Positions 2,188 to 35,961 of a DNA stretch of 35,961 nt are shown here, piece by piece. The stretch is from Patescibacteria group bacterium. GTDB lineage: Bacteria > Patescibacteriota > Minisyncoccia > Phycocordibacterales > PALSA-1337. Location: the NCBI GenBank assembly GCA_018970245.1, contig JAGWWT010000012.1, positions 1 to 35,961 on the forward strand. Direction: 5' to 3'. Below the pieces are notes generated by a model. It made no database searches, had not been told where the DNA came from, and was given only the letters and a program-made list of their open reading frames with translations. The position numbers and the translations under genes are program-made. Every line of letters starts with the position of its first letter. Position 1 is the stretch's first letter.

Positions 2188-4652
2188 CCTTCTATTTCGT
2201 GGTAGCCGTGTACCCGCGCTTTATTCGAACTGGGTCGTTCGGAACTAACGTATACGGCTTCCTTTATCGCTTGCCTGGCGCGGATGACCCGCTCACGATA
2301 TTCGCGGAACATCGTGATAAGAGACGGGTTGATCACCCATTCTGCCTTGCCAGCCGCCTCGCGCTTGCCGTCATCGGTGCGAACAACCCAGTTCGACTTT
2401 TCGAGCATTGCCATCCATCCGAGGATACTCTGATTTGCTTCCCAAGTGCTCATCTTTTCGAACTGACGCCGGCCCGATATCCGCAAGCGCGACAAGTCGA
2501 TTTCTTTTTCGTCAGCGTGTTGAATGATGTATTCCGTTAGCCATTGTTCGGTTGTATTCGTGGAACCGATTTCACCAAGGGCATAGCGGAACGCTGGCAC
2601 AATATACCCTCGCACAACGGAAATCACGCGCTTTACTAAGGCCGCGTCCACAACAGGGTTGAAAGGGCATTCGACCAAGTGAAACAATAGAATAAGCCTA
2701 CCCGTTAAACCTTCCAATTTTCCATAAGCTGTCATATAGGTGTCCCCGGCTTGAATCAAGCGCTCATTCAGCTTGGATGTTTCGTACCACGCTTGAAAAG
2801 ATCGGAATACCTCATAGGCCGCTTCCGAAAGTCGGTAAGTCATTACCGGGAACGAAAAGATCAACCTAAGGGTCTGTTCCCATTGAACCGCGTGCGTCAT
2901 GAAGTCGGGCACGGGATGACCTAAGCGCGTTTTCGATTGCGTAAGCACGGCGGGAATGAAACGCTGCAAGAGGCCATCCGTTGATAGCGCCAACAAGGAT
3001 TCCCGAAACACCTTGGGTTGAATGTTCCCGTAGATCGACACCGCGAGATTGTCACAATGGACGGACCCGGCTCCTACGCGGTCCATTTCGTAACGCTCAG
3101 ATTCATAGCTGACAACCCAAGCCGAACGGTCCTCTCCGCTGCGCTTGTCGGCCAGTTTATAACACCATGACGCCATTTCGTCTAGATGGCACAAGAGCCC
3201 ACGGGGACGATCAGCCGCCTGGCGCACCAATTTCTGACTGGTGATATCCCCGACCGTGATCTTCACGGCAACAGGTTCTTTGGGGCGTTCGGGCACGTCA
3301 GGAGCTTGTGCTCCCATGAGCGCATCTGGGGTACCCCAGAACTTCAAGAACGCTTCCTTGGCGACGCTATAGACCTTTTCGCGGGCTTCCCAATCGAGGA
3401 GTTCTTTCTGGTACCGCACGCGATCTTCGCTTTCGATTTCCTTCAAAGGCGCAAGCATCGGGCGGGAGCCAGGGGATTTCTTGTCGGCGGGGTCGCCTAT
3501 CGTCATGAGCCAAAGGACCGGGGGCACCCGGAAGCCGGGCATCAATTCAAGGCGTGTCCTCGCATCCGCGACGCCACACACGGCGGCAAGGCCAGCGAAC
3601 AAAGGCACAACCAGATCGCACCCAACACTCTCGCTGACCTCTTGAGCCCGAACCCGTAGAATTTCCGGCCACAAGGCGAGGTCGATTTGCGGCGGCAAGG
3701 GACGGAGCGACTGTGATATCTGGTCCGGTGAGGTCGCCGTTACATCTGCGAAATAAGCAGAAGCATCGACCGGGGGAGGCGCCCATCCGTTTTGCTTGGC
3801 AAGATGAAAGATCGAGGCGTCGGTAATCGGCGTGTCGCGATCAATCTTGAAACTCCGCCATTGCTGCAAGATAGCCGGTTCACCGGGGTACTTGTAACTG
3901 GCCGAACTCCATCGGTTCCAGATCATCAGCCCTTCCCGATCCCGGTTCGTACGCACGCTTACCCAGTGGAGGCCCATTCCAACTGCAATCCAATCGGCGC
4001 GGGGACAATCTGGGTTGATGAACTTCAAGGCCGCCTCGATATCTTCCCAAGAACCGGGAGCCGGATCGCCGGGAACCGGCGTTTCCTCTTTGAGTCGGTC
4101 AAGCCAAAGGTTGAGTAGCTCGTCGGGAACAACAGGCAAGCGTGACCAGTGACCGCTCCCCGCCCATTGATAGGGCTCCGCGTGCGGCCAGTCGGCATCG
4201 GCTGGGTGAACGCTAGGGGGCAGCACGTCTTGAACCGACAAGCCCGCGTGCGTCGCGCACCGCAGTTCGAAAATCGTAGCCGGCTTCCCGTTCCCCTGTT
4301 TCGCTGTGACCTTCAGGGACGGCAAGGTGAGCCCGAAGGGCATCTGATATAACAGTTTGCCGTGTCCTGGCTTTCCCGACCTGATGATTACAGCATCTTC
4401 GGCCGCATATAGGGCGTTCACGTTGACACCATAAGCATTTGTCAGGGAGATATCGTCGATATCGAACGCCATTGTGCCGCTATAGGCGTGCAAAAGCCCT
4501 ACGCCCCAGTCAGGGAGTAGAATCGATACATCGGCTAAGGCGGCGCCGCGCTCATTCCAATGTTTCTGCGTCGGGGATTTCTTCCCTGGCGCTATCGGGA
4601 TGAGCTTCCACCCGTGGGCCATGTATTCGGCTATGACTGCGTTTGCAGACAC
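2181..4652 (-). CDS. Primase-polymerase with DUF3987 helicase-like region
   Basis: Replication initiation protein. I choose GTG at 4652 (823 aa), preceded by GAAGG; an upstream TTG at 4724 has no ribosome site. Residue numbers use that start. The N-terminal archaeo-eukaryotic-type primase (prim-pol) domain shows the metal-binding FDIDD (D64, D66), the PGHGK turn (H97) and FELR (E129) followed by PPSVHP. A PriCT_2-like region covers about 200-290. A DUF3987-like region covers about 320-790, with a P-loop-like GDPADKKSP at about 386 and a Walker-B-like LCHLDE at about 491. The P-loop is not a canonical GxxGxGKS, so ATP use is uncertain. It is the only minus-strand gene outside the late operon and probably has its own promoter in the 4653-4745 gap. 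It should prime and perhaps open DNA for the phage polymerase. Confidence 0.88.
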   Translation of the reverse strand: MSANAVIAEYMAHGWKLIPIAPGKKSPTQKHWNERGAALADVSILLPDWGVGLLHAYSGTMAFDIDDISLTNAYGVNVNALYAAEDAVIIRSGKPGHGKLLYQMPFGLTLPSLKVTAKQGNGKPATIFELRCATHAGLSVQDVLPPSVHPADADWPHAEPYQWAGSGHWSRLPVVPDELLNLWLDRLKEETPVPGDPAPGSWEDIEAALKFINPDCPRADWIAVGMGLHWVSVRTNRDREGLMIWNRWSSASYKYPGEPAILQQWRSFKIDRDTPITDASIFHLAKQNGWAPPPVDASAYFADVTATSPDQISQSLRPLPPQIDLALWPEILRVRAQEVSESVGCDLVVPLFAGLAAVCGVADARTRLELMPGFRVPPVLWLMTIGDPADKKSPGSRPMLAPLKEIESEDRVRYQKELLDWEAREKVYSVAKEAFLKFWGTPDALMGAQAPDVPERPKEPVAVKITVGDITSQKLVRQAADRPRGLLCHLDEMASWCYKLADKRSGEDRSAWVVSYESERYEMDRVGAGSVHCDNLAVSIYGNIQPKVFRESLLALSTDGLLQRFIPAVLTQSKTRLGHPVPDFMTHAVQWEQTLRLIFSFPVMTYRLSEAAYEVFRSFQAWYETSKLNERLIQAGDTYMTAYGKLEGLTGRLILLFHLVECPFNPVVDAALVKRVISVVRGYIVPAFRYALGEIGSTNTTEQWLTEYIIQHADEKEIDLSRLRISGRRQFEKMSTWEANQSILGWMAMLEKSNWVVRTDDGKREAAGKAEWVINPSLITMFREYRERVIRARQAIKEAVYVSSERPSSNKARVHGYHEIEGR

Positions 4653-4952: not shown

Positions 4953-5331
4953 CGCCCTACGGGCAGCCGTGGAAGCGCTCACAGCACGCATCGGCGCGAT
5001 TGGCGTTCAGCCTATCGTGTCTGGTTCCATCTCGGTTCCCGCCGCGCCGCCAGCAGCCCCACCGATGGCCGCCGCGCCGCCAGCAGCCCCACCGATGCCC
5101 GCCGCGCCGGCCTTCCTCGCGCCGCCAGTTCCCGTGCCAGTCGCGATCCCGTTCGCAGACACCACCGGGCTGACCCAGTACCTTACCGATGCGTATCGCT
5201 CAATGGGCAGCGCCAAGGGCGCGGCCATTCAGCAGGTGCTCACCCAGCACGGCTACGGTGCCGTCAATGAAGTCCAGCCCCACCACTACGCCAGCATTCA
5301 CGCGGCGGTCGAGTCTCTGCGGGCATCCTAA
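4930..5331 (+). CDS. Pro/Ala-rich linker protein, 133 aa
   Basis: ATG at 4930 has a strong AAAGGAGAGG ribosome site inside the RHH gene. The product has three parts. Residues 1-25 are an amphipathic helix (LENSIDALRAAVEALTARI). Residues about 36-73 are a flexible Pro/Ala-rich linker built from a tandem 10-residue unit. The last 60 residues form a compact helical domain (TTGLTQYLTDAYRSMG...HHYASIHAAVESL). Similar small proteins with that C-terminal domain accompany phage replication genes, from memory, but no activity is known to me. It probably binds another replication protein via the helix and something else via the C-terminal domain (inference). Confidence 0.78.
   Translation: MSLENSIDALRAAVEALTARIGAIGVQPIVSGSISVPAAPPAAPPMAAAPPAAPPMPAAPAFLAPPVPVPVAIPFADTTGLTQYLTDAYRSMGSAKGAAIQQVLTQHGYGAVNEVQPHHYASIHAAVESLRAS
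5041..5100 (+). repeat. Two 30-bp tandem repeats in coding sequence
   Basis: Two adjacent 30-base units (5041-5070 and 5071-5100) differ at one base and are followed by a partial third. Both encode a ten-residue Pro/Ala step in the linker of the 133-aa protein. The repeat is in frame, so gain or loss of units would only change linker length. Confidence 0.9.
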
Positions 5332-5332
5332 G

Positions 5333-6664
5333 ATGAATGCCGCGCTCGATGGGACAATCACTCACGCGCTCCTTGAACACTGCATCAAGGGGAACCTAGT
5401 CGACCCGATGACCCTGATCGGGCAGACCTTCACCTACGAACACGAACACGACCCCCACGCAACGCTTTCCCCTAGCAAGCGTCACCGCTGGGCTGTTTGC
5501 GTGGGTTCGATTCGTGAGGAACGACGCATCCCGGAAGCCGTGGAAACAAAGACCAAGGTCGATTACACGGTAGACCAGGACCGCGCCGAACGGGTGAAGG
5601 TCGCTATCGACTACATTCGCACCCAAATTCACGGCTACGGAAAAGCCTTCAACGTGATAGCCGAACAGAGGGTGGACCCCGCGCCACTGGTCGGGCGCGA
5701 TGACCTGTACGGCACCGTGGACTGCCAACTCTGGTACGGTGATACGTATGAGATCATCGACTACAAGGACGGTATGTCCGAGGTCAAGGTGGAAGGAAAT
5801 CATCAACTCGAACAATACGCGGTCGGGGTACTCGCAAAGGGGGATATCCTCCCTGCGTTCGACAAGGTACGGTTGACCATTATCCAGCCCAAGATGGCCT
5901 TGAAGGGTCAGCCGCCTATCGCGTCGGTCACGGTGCCCCGTGCTGAGGTCGAGACGTGGGCTGCAAAGCTGGCAGCGGAAGCAGCGGCAACGGACGATCT
6001 CAATGCGCCACTGACGCCGGGCGAAAGCCAATGCGGCTACTGCCGCGCCAAGGGTACGTGTCCCGCGCTTGCCGGCAAGGTCATGGAGGAGTTAGGCGTC
6101 ATGTTTCAGCCCGTCAACGCGATCGTGCCCGCGCCGGAAATCGCCCATCAACTCGGCAACCGCGAACCGACTCTCTTGACGCCCGACCAAATGCGTCAGG
6201 TGCTCGAAGCGGCTCCCTTGGTCCGCGATTTCCTTGCCGGCGTCGAAGCGGAAGCGCAAAGGCGCATGGAAGCCGGGCAAACCGTGCCCGGCTTCAAGCT
6301 GGTGCGCGGGCGTGGGTCAAATTCGTGGGCGCTTCCAGAAGCCGAAATCGCGGAAAAGCTACGCGGGATGAAGGTACCTGAAGGCTCGATCTTTTCGGCC
6401 AGTCTGGTATCACCCGCGCAAGCGAAGAAACTGCAATGGACCAATCGCAAGGGAGAGGTCCAGAAACTCACCGATCGCCAGGTCAAGACCCTCGAAACGG
6501 AGTACATAACTCATGCATCGGGTAAACTGACCGTAGTCCCCGAGTCGGACAACCGCGAAGCCGTGATCTTCGACGCGGCAGACCTGTTCGCAACCGTCGC
6601 GCCATCGTTGCCGGTATTCGCGGCGCCCGCGTCGGACCTGGCAATTCCCGCCTGGCTTTCGTAA
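5333..6664 (+). CDS. DUF2800 RecB/Cas4-like nuclease with exchanged N-terminal blocks, 443 aa
   Basis: ATG at 5333 begins one base after the previous stop. The product has the features of phage DUF2800 nucleases of the PD-(D/E)xK superfamily. Catalytic-type residues are D130 (GTVDCQ) and D143-Y-K145 (IIDYKDG), with QLEQY at 158-162. Cysteines C56, C234, C237 and C243 fit a Cas4/AddB-type 4Fe-4S cluster. Oddly, the GTITHALLEHC block with its likely metal-binding H11 comes first and the LSPSKRHRWAVCVGS block with C56 second. In the family as I know it the Cys block precedes the His block. Residues after about 250 form a second, helical region with a Pro/Ala-rich end. Probably processes or recombines replicating DNA together with the ssDNA-binding protein downstream. 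Confidence 0.85.
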   Translation: MNAALDGTITHALLEHCIKGNLVDPMTLIGQTFTYEHEHDPHATLSPSKRHRWAVCVGSIREERRIPEAVETKTKVDYTVDQDRAERVKVAIDYIRTQIHGYGKAFNVIAEQRVDPAPLVGRDDLYGTVDCQLWYGDTYEIIDYKDGMSEVKVEGNHQLEQYAVGVLAKGDILPAFDKVRLTIIQPKMALKGQPPIASVTVPRAEVETWAAKLAAEAAATDDLNAPLTPGESQCGYCRAKGTCPALAGKVMEELGVMFQPVNAIVPAPEIAHQLGNREPTLLTPDQMRQVLEAAPLVRDFLAGVEAEAQRRMEAGQTVPGFKLVRGRGSNSWALPEAEIAEKLRGMKVPEGSIFSASLVSPAQAKKLQWTNRKGEVQKLTDRQVKTLETEYITHASGKLTVVPESDNREAVIFDAADLFATVAPSLPVFAAPASDLAIPAWLS

Positions 6665-6684
6665 TCCCGTAATCCCGTAATCCC
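6661..6684 (+). repeat. Triple 8-bp tandem repeat GTAATCCC
   Basis: Three perfect copies of GTAATCCC overlap the nuclease stop codon and run up to the ribosome site of the next gene. Probably a small slippage product that spaces the two genes. No regulatory role is evident. Confidence 0.8.
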
Positions 6685-6699
6685 TGAAAGGAGATCATC

Positions 6700-7407
6700 A
6701 TGACCGAGGAAAAGAAGAAGGAAAGCAACGTCGTCTACCTGACGAATGTCCGTCTTTCCTTCCCCCACCTGATCCAGCCTTACGCGCAGGAAGGGCAAGG
6801 TGAACCGAAATATTCCGCCGACTTTATCTTGCCGGCGACGCATGCCGGCTGGGCAAAGTTCTTCGAAGTCGTCAACAAGATGGCGCTCGAAAAGTGGAAG
6901 GAACATGCCAGCTCCGTGCTGCAACAGGTGAACGGCGATCCGAAGCGGCGGTGCTACGGAGACGGTTCGCAGAAGGTGGATCAGAAGACTTTCAAGCCGT
7001 ACGACGGTTACGCCGGAATGGTCTTCATCGCGGCCAACCGCAAACAAGGAATCCCGCCGCAGATCATCCAAGGCGACGGGGTAGCCATCGACCCCCAGAA
7101 CACGATGGCGTACGCCGTGCTCACCCGCGAAATGTACGGGGGCTGCCGCGTCAATGCGGCAATCAAGCCCTGGTTGCAAGAAAACCAATTCGGCCGCGCC
7201 GTGCGATGTGAACTCTTGGCGATCCAGAAGTGCGGCGACGATACGCCATTCGGTGACGCAATCACCGACGCTTCCGGCTATTTCGGTCAGGTCGCCGCGC
7301 CAGCCCCCGGACCCTCGCCGGCCGGCGCACCTTTCGCACCCCCGACCGCGCCGATGCCTGCTGCCCCCTTCGGAACGCCGTCAGCCTTGCCGTCGTTCCT
7401 CACGTAA
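6700..7407 (+). CDS. DUF2815 single-stranded DNA-binding protein, 235 aa
   Basis: ATG at 6700 follows AAAGGAG. The first 190 residues match the pattern of the phage DUF2815 family of ssDNA-binding proteins: a charged start, then VVYLTNVRLSFPHLIQP, KYSADFILP, YAGMVFIAAN, and CRVNAAIKPW before RAVRCELLAIQ. The rest is a Pro/Ala-rich flexible tail ending PSALPSFLT, which may recruit partners as the tails of other SSBs do (inference). It lies between the DUF2800 nuclease and the polymerase, a pairing common in phage replication modules. It should coat single strands during replication and recombination. Confidence 0.87.
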   Translation: MTEEKKKESNVVYLTNVRLSFPHLIQPYAQEGQGEPKYSADFILPATHAGWAKFFEVVNKMALEKWKEHASSVLQQVNGDPKRRCYGDGSQKVDQKTFKPYDGYAGMVFIAANRKQGIPPQIIQGDGVAIDPQNTMAYAVLTREMYGGCRVNAAIKPWLQENQFGRAVRCELLAIQKCGDDTPFGDAITDASGYFGQVAAPAPGPSPAGAPFAPPTAPMPAAPFGTPSALPSFLT

Positions 7408-7419
7408 AAGGAGATTTCG

Positions 7420-7989
7420 ATGGCCAAACTGACCACCAAGGAACGGAAGGAAATGCCGAAGTCGAAATTCGGGGAGCCCGGCAAGCGGGCGTACCCGATG
7501 CCCGACAAGAGCCACGCGGCGAACGCCAAGGCCCGCGCTTCGCAAGCCGTGAACGCCGGCCGGATGAGCAAGAGCACCGAATCCAAGATCGACGCCAAGG
7601 CGAACAAGGTGCTCGGGAAGAAGCCCGACCCCAAGCCCCGCGCACCGAAGGCGCCGAAGGCGGTTCCGGTCCCCGACTACAACCGGCCGCACCACTTGAT
7701 GCGAATCGAAGGGCCAATGGCCAAAGCCTTGATGGGCAAGGGCCACAAACCCGGCGATACCGTCTCGCTTCACGTCCGCGCCAAGGTCGCCCGTGCCGAA
7801 GTCCCCACGGGGGAGCCCTACGCGGCTGAACACCATGCGATGCACTTCGAAGTGAAGTCGGTCAAGAGCAAGATGAGCCGCGCCAAGGATGACGCTTACG
7901 ACCGGCGGAACGGAATCAAGGAAGGCAGCAAGGAAGATGCCAAGATCGACCGCGCCAACGGGCTCAAGCCGCTACCCGCGAAGAAGTAA
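7420..7989 (+). CDS. Basic DUF6582-like protein, 189 aa
   Basis: ATG at 7420 follows AAAGGAG. The N-terminal 60 residues contain LTTKERKEMPKSKFGEPGKR and AYPMPDKSHAANAKARASQA, a signature I recall from small phage and bacterial proteins listed as DUF6582-like. A Lys/Pro-rich linker follows, then a second domain (HHLMRIEGPMAKALMGKG...PGDTVSLHVRAKVA...HHAMHFEVKSV) and a basic, lysine-rich end. The overall charge is strongly positive, which fits nucleic-acid or capsid-lumen binding, but no function is known. It is the last gene before a strong hairpin, so it may mark the end of a transcript or an attenuation point before the polymerase gene. Confidence 0.78.
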   Translation: MAKLTTKERKEMPKSKFGEPGKRAYPMPDKSHAANAKARASQAVNAGRMSKSTESKIDAKANKVLGKKPDPKPRAPKAPKAVPVPDYNRPHHLMRIEGPMAKALMGKGHKPGDTVSLHVRAKVARAEVPTGEPYAAEHHAMHFEVKSVKSKMSRAKDDAYDRRNGIKEGSKEDAKIDRANGLKPLPAKK

Positions 7990-8062: not shown

Positions 8063-9940
8063 GTGTCCCGCGATTACGTCTACGATTTGGAGACGTACCC
8101 CAACGTCTTCCTTGCCAGCTTCGAACACGCCGAATCCCCGCTTCGATGGGTGTTCGAGATCAGCGAATGGCGAAACGATTCCAAGCCGCTCCTCGATTTC
8201 CTCACCTGGTTGAAATTGCAGAACGCCCGAATGGTAGGGTTCAATAACCTCGGATTCGACTACCCCGTTCTTCACCAGTTCATCCGCGCCGGCTACGGGG
8301 AGCCGGGGATGCTGTATGCCAAGGCAAAGGCGATCATCGACTCACAGCGATTCGATGATAGCGAGGAACGCTGGGCTCACCAGGTCAAGCCGTCTGACCG
8401 TTTCATTGAACAACTCGATCTTTACAAGATTCATCATTTCGACAACAAAGCCAAGGCGACCAGCTTGAAGGTGCTTGAGTTCAATATGCGGGCGGAAACG
8501 GTGGTGGATTTGCCCTTCCCCGTGGGAACGGTCCTCACGCGAGAGCAGACCGAGATTTTGAAGCGGTATAACGCGCACGACGTAGCGCAAACGAAACAGT
8601 TCTACCACCACTCGGCAGAAATGATTCGTTTCCGCGAGGAGTTAACCCGGAAATATCAGCGCGATTTCATGAACCACAACGATACGAAAATAGGCAAAGA
8701 TTATTTCGTAATGAAACTCGAGGAGGCGCACGTTGCTTGCTACGACTTTTCCCCGACGAAAGGCCGGTCGCCGCGCCAGACCAAACGCCCCATCATCGCG
8801 CTCAACGATGCAATTCTGCCGTGGGTCCGGTTCGATCACCCTGACCTGAACCGCGTGCTCGACTGGTTCAAACAACAAACGATCACGGAGACAAAAGGGG
8901 TGTTCAAAGACCTCACGGCGACCGTGGACGGGTTCACTTTCGTCTTTGGGCTGGGGGGCATCCACGGGTCCGTCGATTCGAAGATCGTTGAGTCCGACGC
9001 GGAGCACGTCATCATCGACCTTGACGTGACCAGCTACTACCCAAATCTTGCGATCGTCAACGGCTTCTACCCCGCCCATCTAGGCGTCGAGTTCGTGAAC
9101 GTCTACCGTCACCTGTTCGAACTGCGGAAGAAGTACCCGAAGAAATCCGCCGAATCGGAAATGCTGAAACTTGCCTTGAACGGCGTCTACGGAGATAGCA
9201 ACAACCCTTTCAGCGTGTTCTACGACCCCTTATTTACAATGTCGATCACCTTGAACGGGCAATTGCTACTCTGTATGCTGGCTGAACGTTTGATGAAGAT
9301 CACCGGGCTCCAGTTAATTCAGATCAACACGGACGGACTGACCGTCAGGGTGCCGCGCCAGCATCGGGAACTGGTCGATGGGGTGAGCCGGCATTGGATG
9401 GAAGAGACGCGCCTGACGCTCGAAGAGACGACCTACAACGTCTTGATGATTCGAGACGTGAACAACTACCTCGGAGTCAAGAAAGACGGCACCCGCAAGC
9501 GCAAGGGGGCATACGCGCACGACCGTGCGGAAGACTGGCGCGGATGGTGGTGCTTGAACGAAAGTGCCATGGTTATCCCCAAAGTAGCGGAAAAGGTGTT
9601 GATTGACGGTGCCCCGATTCGGAAGACCGTCGAAAGCTGGCCGGATCGAATGGATTTCATGCTGCGGACCAAGGTTCCCCGGACCAGTCAACTATGGGTC
9701 CACTATCCCGACCAGGAACCCGAGCAGATTCAGAACGTCAGCCGGTACTACGTCGCGCAAGGCGGCGGCCATCTGTACAAGATGATGCCCCCGCTGAAGG
9801 GCAAGACCGACCGGCGCAAGATCGCCGTGGAATCGGGATGGGGGGTCCAAATCTGCAACGACATTCGCGACGTATCCCTGCCCCTTGACTTCGATTACTA
9901 CGTCAAGGAAGTCGAGAAATTGTGTTTGGGGCTGGCATGA
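8063..9940 (+). CDS. Family B DNA polymerase with 3'-5' exonuclease, 625 aa
   Basis: GTG at 8063 follows GGAGG. The exonuclease domain is complete: Exo I YDLETYP (D8, E10), Exo II GFNNLGFDYP (N62, D66) and Exo III YNAHD (Y169, D173). Polymerase motif A is DLDVTSYYPNLAI (D319/D321), motif B KLALNGVYGDSNN (K369, Y376) and motif C QINTDGL (N422, D424). In most family B enzymes motif C is DTD; here the first Asp is Asn while the second is kept. At 625 residues it is short, near the size of protein-primed or phage-type B enzymes, but no terminal-protein gene is seen and a separate primase-polymerase is present. It should be the replicative polymerase. A family A assignment, common in similar gene cassettes, is not supported by the motifs. 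Confidence 0.88.
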   Translation: MSRDYVYDLETYPNVFLASFEHAESPLRWVFEISEWRNDSKPLLDFLTWLKLQNARMVGFNNLGFDYPVLHQFIRAGYGEPGMLYAKAKAIIDSQRFDDSEERWAHQVKPSDRFIEQLDLYKIHHFDNKAKATSLKVLEFNMRAETVVDLPFPVGTVLTREQTEILKRYNAHDVAQTKQFYHHSAEMIRFREELTRKYQRDFMNHNDTKIGKDYFVMKLEEAHVACYDFSPTKGRSPRQTKRPIIALNDAILPWVRFDHPDLNRVLDWFKQQTITETKGVFKDLTATVDGFTFVFGLGGIHGSVDSKIVESDAEHVIIDLDVTSYYPNLAIVNGFYPAHLGVEFVNVYRHLFELRKKYPKKSAESEMLKLALNGVYGDSNNPFSVFYDPLFTMSITLNGQLLLCMLAERLMKITGLQLIQINTDGLTVRVPRQHRELVDGVSRHWMEETRLTLEETTYNVLMIRDVNNYLGVKKDGTRKRKGAYAHDRAEDWRGWWCLNESAMVIPKVAEKVLIDGAPIRKTVESWPDRMDFMLRTKVPRTSQLWVHYPDQEPEQIQNVSRYYVAQGGGHLYKMMPPLKGKTDRRKIAVESGWGVQICNDIRDVSLPLDFDYYVKEVEKLCLGLA

Positions 9941-13807: not shown

Positions 13808-15745
13808 CTACCTCAAGAGAGCGTTCGATGTTTGGGGGTCCGCCAGAACGTTGTAGACGGCCGGCGCACGGGTCACGACGGCTCCGGCCGCTTGAGCACC
13901 GTGCCCGATAGCTTGTCCGACTGCTTGCCGCCCGAGTGCTCGCTGAAGGACATTGGCGGCGAGTTCGGGATTGAGCATTTCCGTGGCAATCTGAATCGAC
14001 ATGGCCCGGTTCAAACGTCCCGCGCCAATCTGAAAAACGCGATTCGCGACGGTCGCAATCGGGTTCAGCAGGTTGATCTTTAGGCCGCCGATGGTGTCAC
14101 TTCCCACCCGCGCCGGATTCGGACCCGAGCCGCTGGCAGCCATGACCTGTTGTTCGGTCGTCTTGGCACGGGAGAGGTCGTCTCGAACCGAATTCAATTG
14201 GTCGAGTTGCACCGGGGTAAGGATCTGGTCGAGAGTTTGAAAGCGCGGTGCGCCGTTTGTCGCCCGCCGAATGGTCGTCGGGGCATTGTCCAGGGCTCCA
14301 ACATAGCGCGTCGCCCGTTGCGTGGCTGTCCCTTCCCCGAGAGCCGGTGTCAACTGCCCTTCGAGGTACTGTCCGACTTCCATCTGATTGATCGGTTGGC
14401 TCATGATGGCGTGAGCGTTCCGGGCTGTCCGATATGCCGGATTACGGTCTTCCAACCAGTTGAGATAATCACCACGGGCGGATTCAATGGCGGCATTCGC
14501 GTTTCGTGCGTTTGTGGTTGTCGCGTTTGGCGTCACCGCGTCGTCAAGAGCCGTCTTGATCAAATGAGCACCGCGCCCGGTCAAGGCGCCCGTTGTCGCG
14601 TCCCAAAGGCTTTCGTTACGATTCGCCGCAATGGTCTGCGCTTCCCGAATCGCGGACGCGATAGCGGGCCGTTGAGCGAGAGCTTGAAAATCTGCATCGA
14701 GTGGGATGACGGCGGTATCAGCTACCCCGTAATTGAAATTGCTGGCGAGTTGGCGCAAATTCCGCGCATTCTGCAAATCAGCCGGTGTCCGACCTACCTG
14801 TTGAACCTGCGCGATACGTGCCGCGTTCTGGTCTTGAAGCCGCTGGTAGTATTCATCGGGCAACGTTTGCGCCGCCTGGTCGCCCATCGCGGAAAAGCGC
14901 GTCGCGGCCGCCGGGGAAGCCGCTTCCGCTGCGGTCGGTAGACTCCCCGGTACGATCTGATGAGCCCCTACGTTCTGAAGGGCTGTCAGAACTGCCGGTC
15001 CCCGCTCATCCACGGCACGCAGGTAGGTCATCCCCTTTGGTCCGATTGCCGCCATATTGTACCCATACCCGAGTCCGTGTCCGATCACGCTTGCGGGCAA
15101 GCTAAGGGCGTTCATCGGATTCGACACGTTCCCGGCCACCCGAAGTCCCGTCGAAAGGGCATTCGTGGCACCCGCAGTCCGGGCCATCCCGGCAACGTCC
15201 GCTACCCGCGCCGCGCCGCCCGCAACGGCTTCTCCCCCCGTCAACAAGGTTGAGGCGTCGGCAAGGAAGCCCATCGGGTCGTTCGCAATCGTGTTCATGA
15301 CTCGCTGGGGATTCCCGTAGCGCTGTGCGTACATTCCCCCGATGGCGTTCGCACTCGAAATGGCGTGTGCGATGGCACCCGGATTTCGTACGAACTCACC
15401 AATGGCCTGTTGCGCTTGGGGTGTAAGACCTTTGAGCACCGCGCCCGCCGCCGCGCTTCCGAGCCCTTCCACCGTTTTGATCGGATGTTGAAGGGCAGTC
15501 AGCATCCCCGTTCCGAGTTTCACCGCGCTTGGGATGACATGTTGAACCGCTTGACCGGGAACCTGCGAAAGTGGAACGTCGGTTGACGCAGGTTGTGGAG
15601 CCGGAGTTGGAGTCGTCGGGGGTATCTGATAGCGCGTCCACGGTTCTTGAACTGCGGGAGCCGGTGCGGGTTCGACCGAGGCGCTACTGTCCGGGTCCGT
15701 CGCCGCCTGGTACTTCCTCCACGGTCCTTCTGCCGGTGCGGTCAT
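13808..15745 (-). CDS. Large ejection-type virion protein, 645 aa
   Basis: ATG at 15745 overlaps the previous stop (ATGA). The protein is Ala-rich and largely helical. It begins with a Pro-rich region containing two related short motifs (GPWRKYQ, EPWTRYQ), then hydrophobic Ala/Gly helices (about 75-260) and a long helical body with many Gln/Asn. It is the third of three large helical genes between the fibre and lysis genes, where P22-like phages carry the ejection proteins gp7, gp20 and gp16. No lytic transglycosylase site is visible. By place and composition it should leave the capsid with the DNA and help build the channel through the envelope. Direct similarity to gp16 cannot be judged by eye. 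Confidence 0.75.
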   Translation of the reverse strand: MTAPAEGPWRKYQAATDPDSSASVEPAPAPAVQEPWTRYQIPPTTPTPAPQPASTDVPLSQVPGQAVQHVIPSAVKLGTGMLTALQHPIKTVEGLGSAAAGAVLKGLTPQAQQAIGEFVRNPGAIAHAISSANAIGGMYAQRYGNPQRVMNTIANDPMGFLADASTLLTGGEAVAGGAARVADVAGMARTAGATNALSTGLRVAGNVSNPMNALSLPASVIGHGLGYGYNMAAIGPKGMTYLRAVDERGPAVLTALQNVGAHQIVPGSLPTAAEAASPAAATRFSAMGDQAAQTLPDEYYQRLQDQNAARIAQVQQVGRTPADLQNARNLRQLASNFNYGVADTAVIPLDADFQALAQRPAIASAIREAQTIAANRNESLWDATTGALTGRGAHLIKTALDDAVTPNATTTNARNANAAIESARGDYLNWLEDRNPAYRTARNAHAIMSQPINQMEVGQYLEGQLTPALGEGTATQRATRYVGALDNAPTTIRRATNGAPRFQTLDQILTPVQLDQLNSVRDDLSRAKTTEQQVMAASGSGPNPARVGSDTIGGLKINLLNPIATVANRVFQIGAGRLNRAMSIQIATEMLNPELAANVLQRALGRQAVGQAIGHGAQAAGAVVTRAPAVYNVLADPQTSNALLR

Positions 15746-17259
15746 TTCGTTACCTTCGACCAGCTTGACGGATTGCCAGGGTCGCCGCCATTGAAGATGT
15801 AACCGTCTTCCACGGTTCCGGGAGCTAGCCCAAGACCGTTAAGCGACTGATCTTCGGATGGCATCTCAAGCGGTTTGAAATCGAGATTACCTTGCGTAAT
15901 CGGCGACATTTGACCAAGGGTGTCGTTATAGACGCTCACGTTGTACTGGGCCATACGCTTGTACAGGTTCAACATTCGCGTAAGGGCGCCCGCATCGAAC
16001 GATACCTTGCTCAAGGTCGCCTGATTGAGCAAACTCAATTCCGGCCCGGCAAGGTATCGGAACGAAGATCGAGACATTCCACCCGCCGCCACTGTGGACA
16101 TGATGTTTGTTGCCAGTTCTTTCGCGAGGATTTGGGTGTTCGCAATTTTTCCGGTTGCCGCGTCCGACACGCCAAGGGCCTTGAGCACTCGCGCACCCTG
16201 CAAACTCAATTCGGCGCCCGCTCCCGTGAAGACCTGACCGCTGTTCAATAGTCCGAGGGCTTCGTTAATGTTCCCGATCGTGATGTTCGCGGTCTTCGCT
16301 GCCCCGTACAACGGTTCGAGGATCTTGTTGCCAGCGACCGCTTGCAAACGACTCATTGCCCCTTGCTGTTCCATTCTGGTCGCCTGAACCTTGGCACCCG
16401 CTCCGATTCGAGCGCTTTGTATTTCGGCATTCGCGGATATCCGTCTGCCTTGAATCCCCGCCGCCGCAAGGATCTTTGCGGATTCGATGCGTGCCAAGTT
16501 GGAAGTTAAGGCTTCTGGGCTCAAAGACACCTTGAATGGCGTCGATTGTTGCGTTTGACCGCCGACATAGGCGGGTAGTGCGGTAACGACTTCTTGGTTG
16601 CCTTGATTGACGACGTTCGGCCGAGCGCTCTTGAGCATGTTTTCGGCGCCTAACATCGTCGAACGCATGTACTGGTTCAGCGCATCCGGGCCTTGTGCGA
16701 TGGCAGCATTCAGTTTTTCGTCATCGAGTTCCGTTTGTGCTTGAACCTGGTCGCTTCCCATCCCCATCGCACCGTAAAGGTGCGAAAGAAGGGGAGCGCT
16801 CACGCTCTTATGCCAGTTCAGAACGGCGTCAGCGGTATTCTGAAATTGCGTTTGGTCGTACTGGCCTTTGTCGTCGGGCTGCATCATCGGGATTTGAGCA
16901 AGCTGATTCTTTGCCGTCTCAATGCCCGGCAAGAGAGATTCTACCTGCGTTTTGGCGATATCCGCCCGTGTCTTCTGAATTTCGAGGTTCGCCTGGTAAA
17001 CCTGCGGAATCGCAGACCCGGCTCCCGCTTGTGCAAGCTGCCCACCAATCATGTTCAAATTGATCGTGCCATCCGGGTTGATAACACCTGGTGTCTTGTA
17101 CGCCTGGTTCAAGGAGTTCGCGATGTTCAACTGGTTCTGTGCCATTGCGTTCTGCGTCATCGCGCCTTGTGCGCTCAAGAACTCCCCGTACTTCTGAAGC
17201 GGGTCCGCAATCTGCGGTGGCTGAACCTGCGTCAGAATGTCAGTGTTGAGAGTATTCAT
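15742..17259 (-). CDS. Ejection-type virion protein, 505 aa
   Basis: ATG at 17259 lies three bases after the stop of the upstream gene. The 505 residues are rich in Gln, Asn and Ala and are mainly helical: an N-terminal region with LQKYGEFLSAQGAMTQNAMAQ, a long middle (KTRADIAKTQVESLLPGIETAKNQL) and a final domain (LELLNQ-like turns, LNLYKRMAQYNVSVYNDTLG). The C-terminus includes PGTVEDGYIFNGGDPGNPSSW, a motif I associate with phage virion proteins of this class. It occupies the middle position of the ejection trio. No enzymatic motif is seen. Probably travels into the cell envelope with the DNA. Confidence 0.75.
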   Translation of the reverse strand: MNTLNTDILTQVQPPQIADPLQKYGEFLSAQGAMTQNAMAQNQLNIANSLNQAYKTPGVINPDGTINLNMIGGQLAQAGAGSAIPQVYQANLEIQKTRADIAKTQVESLLPGIETAKNQLAQIPMMQPDDKGQYDQTQFQNTADAVLNWHKSVSAPLLSHLYGAMGMGSDQVQAQTELDDEKLNAAIAQGPDALNQYMRSTMLGAENMLKSARPNVVNQGNQEVVTALPAYVGGQTQQSTPFKVSLSPEALTSNLARIESAKILAAAGIQGRRISANAEIQSARIGAGAKVQATRMEQQGAMSRLQAVAGNKILEPLYGAAKTANITIGNINEALGLLNSGQVFTGAGAELSLQGARVLKALGVSDAATGKIANTQILAKELATNIMSTVAAGGMSRSSFRYLAGPELSLLNQATLSKVSFDAGALTRMLNLYKRMAQYNVSVYNDTLGQMSPITQGNLDFKPLEMPSEDQSLNGLGLAPGTVEDGYIFNGGDPGNPSSWSKVTK

Positions 17260-25179: not shown

Positions 25180-26277
25180 CTAGATGTTGATGTACTCGAT
25201 GTAGAGGTTGGCCACCTGACCTCCCGATGCGCCAGTTGCCGTCGAAGCCGTGACCCACGCGCCAGCCGCAAGACGGATGACCGCCGGCGGGTTGTAGTTG
25301 AACACTCCGGTCGCTGAATGCGTGTCCTGACCGTTCAGCAAATTGTTTGCCAAGGTCGTACCAGAAACGGCCGTGGTACCTACAGAGACGGTGCAAACCC
25401 CGGTCGCGACGGTCGTCACGTCGAGCCAGCACCGCATGATCATGATCGCGCCGGCTTCCGGGTTCACCCACGACGTGATACCGCCGCCGGTGTCCGTGCC
25501 GCCGTTCGCTGTCAGCTTCGCGATCTTCGGAACACGGTCGCTCTTGCCGGCACCGAGCACGCCGAACACGTCCACCGCGTTCAACTTGAACGCGGTCTTC
25601 GTGTCGCGCACGTCAAGCTGCTTGCTGGCATCGAGTACGGTCGCACTCGATGCTGCCGCCGTTCCCGCCGTCACCCCGTGCAAGACGTTGATTTCCGGTG
25701 CCGTCGCCGTGACTGCTGTTCCCGCGCCCGCTCCAAGGGAGAGCGTCCCAAGGACCAGTGCGTCCGTTCGCTTGTTCGCGTCCACGACAACCGCGCCAGA
25801 CGCTAGCGTGGTGCCAGCCGTCACCCCGTGCAAGACGTTGATTTCCGGTGCCGTCGCCGTCACCGCCGTTCCGCCAGCCGCGCCGAGGTTGAGCGTGCCC
25901 AACACCAAGGTATCGAGCCGCTTGTTCGCGTCTACGACCAGGGCCGAGGAAACGGCCACGGTGCCAGCCACCACGCTATGCAGGACATTCAATTCGGCTG
26001 CCGTCGCCGTCACCGCCGTTCCCGCACCCGCTCCGAGGGAGAGCGTGCCGATAACCAGGGCATCCGCACGCTTGTTCGCGTCCACCACGACCGCCTTGGA
26101 AGCAGCCACGGTACCCGCCGTCACCCCGTGGAGCACGTCGATTTCGGCCGTTGTCGCGGTCATCCCATGAACCGTGTTGAGTTCGGCCGCTGTTGCCGTC
26201 ACTGGCGTTCCGGCGAGGGAAAGGGAGTCGAAGTCGGGATCAGCGAATGCGACCCCGGTTGGCTTGCTGTTCGCCAT
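25180..26277 (-). CDS. Repeat-containing head fibre/decoration protein, 365 aa
   Basis: ATG at 26277. Residues about 26-220 consist of four copies of a 50-residue unit (VTATAxEINVLHGVTAGTxxAS, then VVVDANKRxDxLVLGTLSLGAGAGTA), the first and last incomplete. The C-terminal 130 residues form a separate beta-rich domain (PKIAKLTANGGTDTGGG...VTASTATGASGGQVANLYIEYINI). Units of this type are typical of elongated beta-stranded, trimeric phage fibres. Its place directly after the coat and decoration genes, far from the tail fibre, suggests it decorates the capsid; a tail role cannot be excluded. Confidence 0.75.
   Translation of the reverse strand: MANSKPTGVAFADPDFDSLSLAGTPVTATAAELNTVHGMTATTAEIDVLHGVTAGTVAASKAVVVDANKRADALVIGTLSLGAGAGTAVTATAAELNVLHSVVAGTVAVSSALVVDANKRLDTLVLGTLNLGAAGGTAVTATAPEINVLHGVTAGTTLASGAVVVDANKRTDALVLGTLSLGAGAGTAVTATAPEINVLHGVTAGTAAASSATVLDASKQLDVRDTKTAFKLNAVDVFGVLGAGKSDRVPKIAKLTANGGTDTGGGITSWVNPEAGAIMIMRCWLDVTTVATGVCTVSVGTTAVSGTTLANNLLNGQDTHSATGVFNYNPPAVIRLAAGAWVTASTATGASGGQVANLYIEYINI
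25640..26190 (-). repeat. 150-bp in-frame tandem repeats
   Basis: Units of about 150 bases recur within the 365-aa head protein. For example, the plus-strand text GTCACCCCGTGCAAGACG appears near 25671 and again exactly 150 bases on. Copies differ by scattered, mostly synonymous changes, so the array is old but still recognisable; boundaries are approximate. Confidence 0.8.
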
Positions 26278-35114: not shown

Positions 35115-35120
35115 CCGGAG

Positions 35121-35270
35121 TACGAAAATTTCGCGGAAAATCGGAAGGTGGGTTTCCGCGAAATTTTCGGAGTCCTTTATTTCGCGGAAAATCGGAAGGT
35201 GGGTTTTCGCGGAAAATCGGAGTCCTTTATTTCGCGGAAAAATCGGAGTCCTTTATTTCGCGGAAAATAA
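35121..35270. repeat. Tandem repeats of a TTTCGCGGAAAATCGG core
   Basis: The core TTCGCGGAAAA recurs five times on the plus strand and once inverted (TTTCCGCGAAATTTTCGG, at 35153-35170). It is organised as two 50-base units (35121-35170, 35171-35220), one 26-base unit (35221-35246) and a partial one (from 35247). AGTCCTTTAT joins the later units. AT-rich tracts alternate with the CGCGG core, as in iteron-type origins. Confidence 0.88.
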
Positions 35271-35420
35271 AAAGTGATTTATGGGGACCGACCTTGGCCA
35301 TACGGGACCGGCGCGGACCTGCCCACCCCACCACCCCACCATCCGGGATTTCCTCGCCGGCCGATGAACCCAGTGGGTCGCAATCGATGAACCCAGTGGG
35401 TTCACAATCGAGGTACCAGG

Positions 35421-35557
35421 AACCCACTGGGTTTAGTGGGTTTTACCGACGGTTTGCCAATACTGACAGCTTTGACAGCTTGAACCCACTGGGTTTAGTG
35501 GGTTTTACCGACGGCTTGCCAATATTGACAGCCTTGACAGCTTTAACCCACTGGGTT
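35421..35557. repeat. Two 62-bp direct repeats plus a partial third
   Basis: Units 35421-35482 and 35483-35544 differ at only a few bases. Each begins with the 13-bp site AACCCACTGGGTT, then TAGTGGGTTTTACCGACGG, then TTGCCAATA and two TGACAGC steps. A third unit starts at 35545 but keeps only the 13-bp site. Each TTGACA near the unit end stands 5 bases before the next 13-bp site. Confidence 0.9.
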
Positions 35558-35637
35558 CAACTCACAGACCCACTGGGTTCGATTTACAGACCCAGCGGGT
35601 TTTTACCACCTGTTTTTAGACCCACTGGGTTCAGAAA

Positions 35638-35761: not shown

Positions 35762-35856
35762 TCTGTACTGACAGTTTGACAATACCCCGGAAAAAACCCA
35801 TCTATCCTATTCCATATACACCGAGGTTTTTTCGCAGGAAGTATTGTCAGTACAGA
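35762..35856. repeat. 12-bp inverted repeat flanking the pre-promoter segment
   Basis: TCTGTACTGACA (35762-35773) is repeated in inverse as TGTCAGTACAGA (35845-35856). A second overlapping pair, TGACAATAC (35777-35785) and GTATTGTCA (35841-35849), shares the same axis. The right arm overlaps the early -35 element and runs into the last 13-bp site, so a protein bridging the arms could control that promoter. Confidence 0.7.
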
Positions 35857-35872
35857 CCCAGTGGGGTAAGAT
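35844..35872 (+). promoter_or_regulatory. Predicted early promoter with operator in the spacer
   Basis: TTGTCA (35844-35849) and TAAGAT (35867-35872) are exactly 17 bases apart, a good sigma70-type match. The -10 is also present at 15-20 because of the terminal overlap. The 13-bp site GACCCAGTGGGGT fills 35855-35867, between the two hexamers, so a bound protein would block or reshape polymerase binding. Drives the early operon starting at 56. Confidence 0.68.
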
Positions 35873-35961
35873 GAAAAGGTAGGCAATCGAGCGAAAGGAC
35901 GGAACAAATGTACCAAACCTGGCACGGCAGTTATTTGCTTGAAATCTGGTCAGTAGACGGC
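35853..35961. repeat. Terminal direct repeat, right copy
   Basis: Exact copy of bases 1-109. It contains the last RACCCASTGGG-type site, the -10 element of the early promoter, the ribosome binding site and the first 18 codons of the first early gene. Count it once when the genome is circularised. Confidence 0.9.
35908..35961 (+). CDS. Duplicate 5' part of the first early gene (contig overlap)
   Basis: ATG at 35908 and the following 17 codons repeat bases 56-109. The frame runs off the end of the window. It is the same gene as the one at 56 and not a second copy, given circular closure. Confidence 0.85.
   Translation, partial: MYQTWHGSYLLEIWSVDG

Follow-up and report, generated by a model that had tools for sequence, protein, structure and literature searches.

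The window, i.e. the whole stretch of 35,961 nucleotides analyzed here, is bounded by a perfect 109-nt direct terminal repeat (1–109 and 35853–35961); since this overlap closes the contig as a circle, it is a complete circular-mapping phage genome of 35.85 kb unique sequence. The contig was binned in a 1.42-Mb genome of 101 contigs, whereas the relatives of this bin comprise 0.4–1.1 Mb; bin membership is weak evidence for the phage host. The gene under study encodes a DUF2800-type PD-(D/E)XK nuclease of 443 amino acids with a permuted N-terminus (5333–6664, forward strand) and is embedded in a conserved gene module: it is preceded by a module partner that occupies the same position in L003–L005 (4930–5331; PHROG 22695) and followed by a Gp2.5-like ssDNA-binding/annealing protein of the DUF2815 type (6700–7407; PHROG 112, E 3e-32) and a phage DNA polymerase (8063–9940; PHROG 1252, E 3.4e-187), all on the forward strand. 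Upstream, the opposite strand encodes a primase/helicase, a DNA helicase (PHROG 62) lies downstream, and the neighbors of the nuclease gene are syntenic with those of its relatives. The succession of exonuclease, Gp2.5-like SSB/annealing protein and DNA polymerase has been described in phages as the duf2800-gp2.5-polA module (PMC8093625); the window shows the same arrangement, its polymerase matching PHROG 1252 and not being assigned to family A or B.

Several further features were recorded in the phage genome. A 30-nt tandem repeat (5038–5109) in the gene that directly precedes the nuclease encodes a Pro/Ala-rich linker, three copies of CGTAATCC lie directly at the stop codon of the nuclease and shortly after it (6660–6684), and a 189-aa reading frame (7420–7989) matches PHROG 16160 (69 aa, unknown function) with its first 67 residues, the other approximately 120 residues representing an extension. 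The intergenic region at 35117–35601 is dense in repeats: units of 25/51 nt that carry TTTCGCGGAAA, units of 23 nt, and a tandem repeat of 62 nt containing AACCCACTGGGTT palindromes. It may serve as an iteron-like origin of replication or in regulation. On the reverse strand, a 365-aa protein (25180–26277) with repeats of about 50 residues (GTAVTATAPEINVLHGVTAGT..VVVDANKRxDxLVLGTLSLGAG; 150-nt units at the DNA level) probably belongs to the virion surface or the tail; two large reading frames of 645 and 505 aa (13808–17259, reverse strand, the structural-gene strand) had no PHROG match at E 0.001.

The 443-aa protein matched PF10926 (DUF2800) with 195.2 bits (E 2.5e-57), above the curated cut-off of 21 bits, and the exonuclease family PHROG 69 (E 1.5e-65); PDDEXK_1 was the weaker second Pfam match, and no Cas4 profile was reported in the Pfam and NCBIfam scans. 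Its catalytic motifs, D130 (GTVD) and D143-x-K145 (IDYKDG), are encoded at 5720–5767 and are invariant in an alignment of 29 sequences; the C-terminal cluster cysteines C234, C237 and C243 (CxxC-x5-C, 6032–6061) are likewise invariant in the alignments (both features on the forward strand). All six residues were checked in the translation and fall on invariant DUF2800 columns. Both the cluster-Cys block and the GT..H block are present, and the protein has the Q motif in common with the DUF2800 phage exonucleases; the near-invariant proline that follows the first cluster cysteine in the family (CPGS) is substituted by valine (CVGS).

The two N-terminal blocks, however, appear in an order opposite to that of the family. 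The translation contains GTITHALLEHC at residues 7–17 and LSPSKRHRWAVCVGS at residues 45–59, followed by DRAERVKVAIDYI, GTVD, IDYKDG and CxxC-x5-C. Thus, the His block (block B, residues 1–41, 5333–5455, forward strand), which consists of the His helix AALDGTITHALLEHC with H11 and the first strand of a hairpin and usually takes second place, comes first, and the Cys block (block A, HATLSPSKRHRWAVC, residues 42–71, 5456–5545, forward strand), which contains HATLSPSKRHRWAVCVGSIREERRIPE with the first cluster cysteine C56 and is usually N-terminal, lies inside the hairpin. When the blocks were compared with those of the canonical relative L049, block B (AALDGTITHALLEHCIKGNLVDP versus AAIDGTHTHTVLEHCIKGNLADP) reached a score of 120, approximately 20 s.d. 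above shuffled sequences, and block A a score of 101, approximately 19 s.d. above them, in contrast to scores of 12–15 for the crossed A/B comparisons; judged from this sequence similarity, the homology of both blocks to those of the family is beyond doubt. In the Pfam analysis of fragments, block A matched positions 1–28 of the PF10926 profile and the part downstream of it positions 69–368, which marks block A as out of place; block B alone gave no match because the fragment is too short. No second or vestigial copy of either block was found above chance in the window. The reversed order claimed in the earlier note is therefore confirmed by the translation, the block scores and the placement of the Pfam fragments, and the key residues, all kept according to this note, are indeed in place (C56, H11, D130, D143, K145, C234/C237/C243). 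The accompanying statement that swapping the blocks back gives a normal family member is correct only roughly, as the linkers differ from those of the family and the stretch is approximately 5–6 residues longer.

The nearest four relatives (from phage DSL-LC05 and three IMG/VR contigs; approximately 50% identical) all have block A before block B. A profile search added 80 further relatives, and the A–B order was present in all 84 with a motif spacing of 32–33 residues; a copy on an Anabaena-MAG contig with the same order raised the close relatives, which come from IMG/VR, phage DSL-LC05 and this contig, to 85 of 85. The order was also found, with the blocks about 31–34 residues apart, in 17 of 17 divergent phage DUF2800 proteins (BPP-1, BcepC6B, AchV4, two Vibrio phages, APSE, Aeromonas, Pasteurella, Enterococcus, Streptococcus, Paenibacillus, two Phocaeicola phages, Bacteroides, Roseobacter, a bat-faeces phage and Rhodoferax). 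In consequence, the family norm assumed by the earlier note holds in 102 of 102 relatives as well as in the Pfam profile, and no homologue sharing the order of the window, which is a singleton, was present among these relatives or in the IMG/VR motif scans. DUF2800 exonucleases such as those of phage DSL-LC05 (WJZ48137.1), BPP-1 (Bbp38) and APSE (P51) share with the window protein the two blocks, the D/DxK residues, the Q motif and the four cysteines, as well as a module that also encodes a Gp2.5-like SSB and a DNA polymerase; they differ, like all DUF2800 members examined, in having A before B, whereas B precedes A and A lies within the hairpin in the window. The A–B order is universal in the members examined and not a criterion of Pfam.

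Further searches for siblings with the permuted order were negative: none was found in the close-relative scan of viral contigs, by exact back-translated motif searches or with patterns for the permuted B-to-A spacing that used three leucine codons, the IMG/VR motif scans gave no second permuted gene, and the genome collections yielded a single homologue, which is canonical; among the whole genomes of 100 relatives of the bin, the permuted order occurred in the window alone. As a positive control, patterns covering the window's own codons did match the window. A scan for the permuted A-to-DRA spacing returned four matches, none of them DUF2800, and matches in Phocaeicola phages, at first sight extending across B and A, turned out to be canonical, the match including the end of the gene upstream. 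Rhodoferax phage P26218 (L107, NC_029061.1, about 3420–4172), which looked unusual, was rejected as well: the annotated exonuclease start at 3486 lies downstream of the Cys block, the frame itself is canonical, and the true start is probably located upstream, near 3424.

The spacing of the blocks relative to the RAxRV motif specifies the change. The distance from B to RAxRV is 38–40 residues in 41 dereplicated relatives versus 77 in the window, so that the arrangement can be explained by a single hairpin insertion of approximately 38 residues; the distance from A to RAxRV is correspondingly 70–73 in these relatives and 39 in the window. Among the near-invariant positions of block A, 16 of 20 are unchanged, W53 and C56 included. 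The identity between the window protein and its relatives amounts to 73% for block A, 52% for block B and 55% for the rest (93, 62 and 78%, respectively, among the relatives).

For structure prediction by AlphaFold2, alignment depth for each block was secured by supplying the relatives in two unmodified pieces, block A by itself and block B together with the remainder; the split alignment was checked by eye, and canonical L049 was modeled for comparison. The L049 model revealed a His helix (residues 38–48), a short hairpin with adjoining strands (61–64 and 67–70) and a subsequent long helix. In the window model, the His helix (3–19, pLDDT 80–97) is followed by a strand at 32–39 (TFTYEHEH, 5426–5449), block A with a helix at 57–65, a second strand at 72–79 (TKTKVDYT, 5546–5569) and the long helix (strands assigned by DSSP; both encoded on the forward strand). 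As these two strands, which correspond to 61–64 and 67–70 of L049, flank block A, the rearrangement is, according to the model, best described as a transfer of the Cys segment from the N-terminus to the tip of the hairpin behind the His helix. Both strands look longer in the modeled window protein than in the family: the TKTKV residues lack a counterpart in the relatives and are predicted to extend the hairpin, and, from the register, E36 and E38 would pair with K75 and K73, respectively. The hairpin site appears to tolerate insertions, since BcepC6B and RDJL2 possess longer loops there. The placement of block A in the hairpin has low pLDDT values (about 41–55). Low values were also obtained for residues 1–40 of the canonical L049 model (33–48), and the CxxC-x5-C region is of low confidence in both models.

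Compared with solved structures, the window model was most similar to AdnA (Z 11.0; 187 residues, 4.0 Å), followed by RecB (9.0), AddA (8.9), AddB (7.7) and Cas4 SSO0001 (7.0), and has a RecB-like PD-(D/E)XK fold; the E-values of Foldseek were weak (best 1.4e-3), and a sequence search of solved structures gave no credible match. Residue 1 of the window protein aligned with the start of the His helix in AdnA (823), AddB (821) and Cas4 SSO0001 (52), whereas canonical L049 also covered the preceding segment (AdnA from 800, Cas4 SSO0001 from 19). Cas4, AddB and AdnA, Fe-S nucleases of the RecB type, have in common with the window nuclease the predicted fold, but in contrast to it their first cysteine precedes the His helix, at an identity of only 11–19%. 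In other protein folds, circular permutations and segment relocations change the order of the chain while the fold is kept; in contrast to an end-to-end circular permutation, the window protein would represent an internal relocation of approximately 35 residues into the tip of a hairpin. The literature searched, which did not include the main review of the nuclease superfamily, contained nothing on point concerning circular permutation in this superfamily.

A metagenome-type contig from a bin of 101 contigs and an order encountered only once would suit a local assembly or chimera error, in which the blocks of a canonical A–B phage gene were swapped in the contig. Such an error is nevertheless unlikely. 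The three seams are all in frame, the ATG stands exactly before block B, 1 nt past the stop codon of the upstream gene, and no ATG, GTG or TTG is located at the B|A seam; the words shared by the seams are only 5–6 nt long, as are those shared by random pairs, and the seam region contains no direct repeat of at least 11 nt, so that a graph assembler would have no basis for a mis-join. Nor do the linkers restore the family pattern when the blocks are swapped back, the surplus residues including the TKTKV of a predicted strand, and the contig closes on itself with neighboring genes in synteny. A real rearrangement in a damaged gene, whose protein no longer folds or cuts, is very improbable: the low model confidence of block A and the change of CPGS to CVGS would be in accordance with it, as would the finding for Cas4 that replacement of any of the four cysteines renders the protein insoluble (PMC3466216). 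In Cas4 and AddB, a single N-terminal cluster cysteine is joined by three C-terminal ones (PMC3466216). Given the need for each of them in Cas4, the retention of all four in the window protein rather suggests that the relocated segment still works. Indeed, the frame is open over its full 443 codons with every catalytic and cluster residue kept, the surrounding module is intact, and conservation is still highest in block A, as it is in the canonical relatives, which (the Pro-to-Val change notwithstanding) argues against release from constraint; a neutral reading frame approximately 45% diverged from its relatives would not be expected to retain both motifs and frame, except after a very recent event.

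The locus is thus likely to encode a working DUF2800 nuclease, RecB/Cas4-like and with four cysteines, that belongs to a phage module for replication and recombination and in which block A was moved downstream into the hairpin tip and the protein starts with block B. It is somewhat less firmly, but still probably, a natural move of the cluster-ligand segment of an Fe-S nuclease, with cluster and active site preserved, and would then be the first variant in chain order known for the DUF2800/Cas4-like fold. As none of the 102 relatives shares the B–A order, it would be a rare natural rearrangement if confirmed by sequencing reads. The natural block permutation, one of the two explanations offered by the earlier note, is supported by the sequence evidence and refined to a hairpin-tip relocation.

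According to the models, block A would ride on a hairpin with strands longer than those of the relatives; from there, C56 could still complete the four-cysteine cluster with C234, C237 and C243 (both cysteine regions being of low pLDDT), and H11 could still reach the site of D130, D143 and K145, so that the family fold would be kept with a changed connectivity of the chain. The simplest route to this arrangement would be a tandem duplication of the start-proximal A–B segment with subsequent loss of the first A and the second B, resulting in ATG–B–A–rest with the original start codon region retained; alternatively, a single transposition may have occurred. With regard to function, the gene module suggests that the nuclease likely acts in end resection during phage recombination and replication, providing ssDNA for the neighboring Gp2.5-like annealing protein; reports of nuclease activity for any DUF2800 protein were not found in the literature searched.

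If true, the first cluster cysteine need not be N-terminal in the DUF2800/Cas4-like fold, and a natural move of the first ligand to another loop would show the tolerance of the nuclease fold for reordering of its chain. As collinear profile searches split permuted proteins into pieces, others may have been overlooked. The permuted nuclease would offer a ready test for the contacts that are truly required by the cluster, and the case would illustrate the rearrangement of segments within a single protein by phages.
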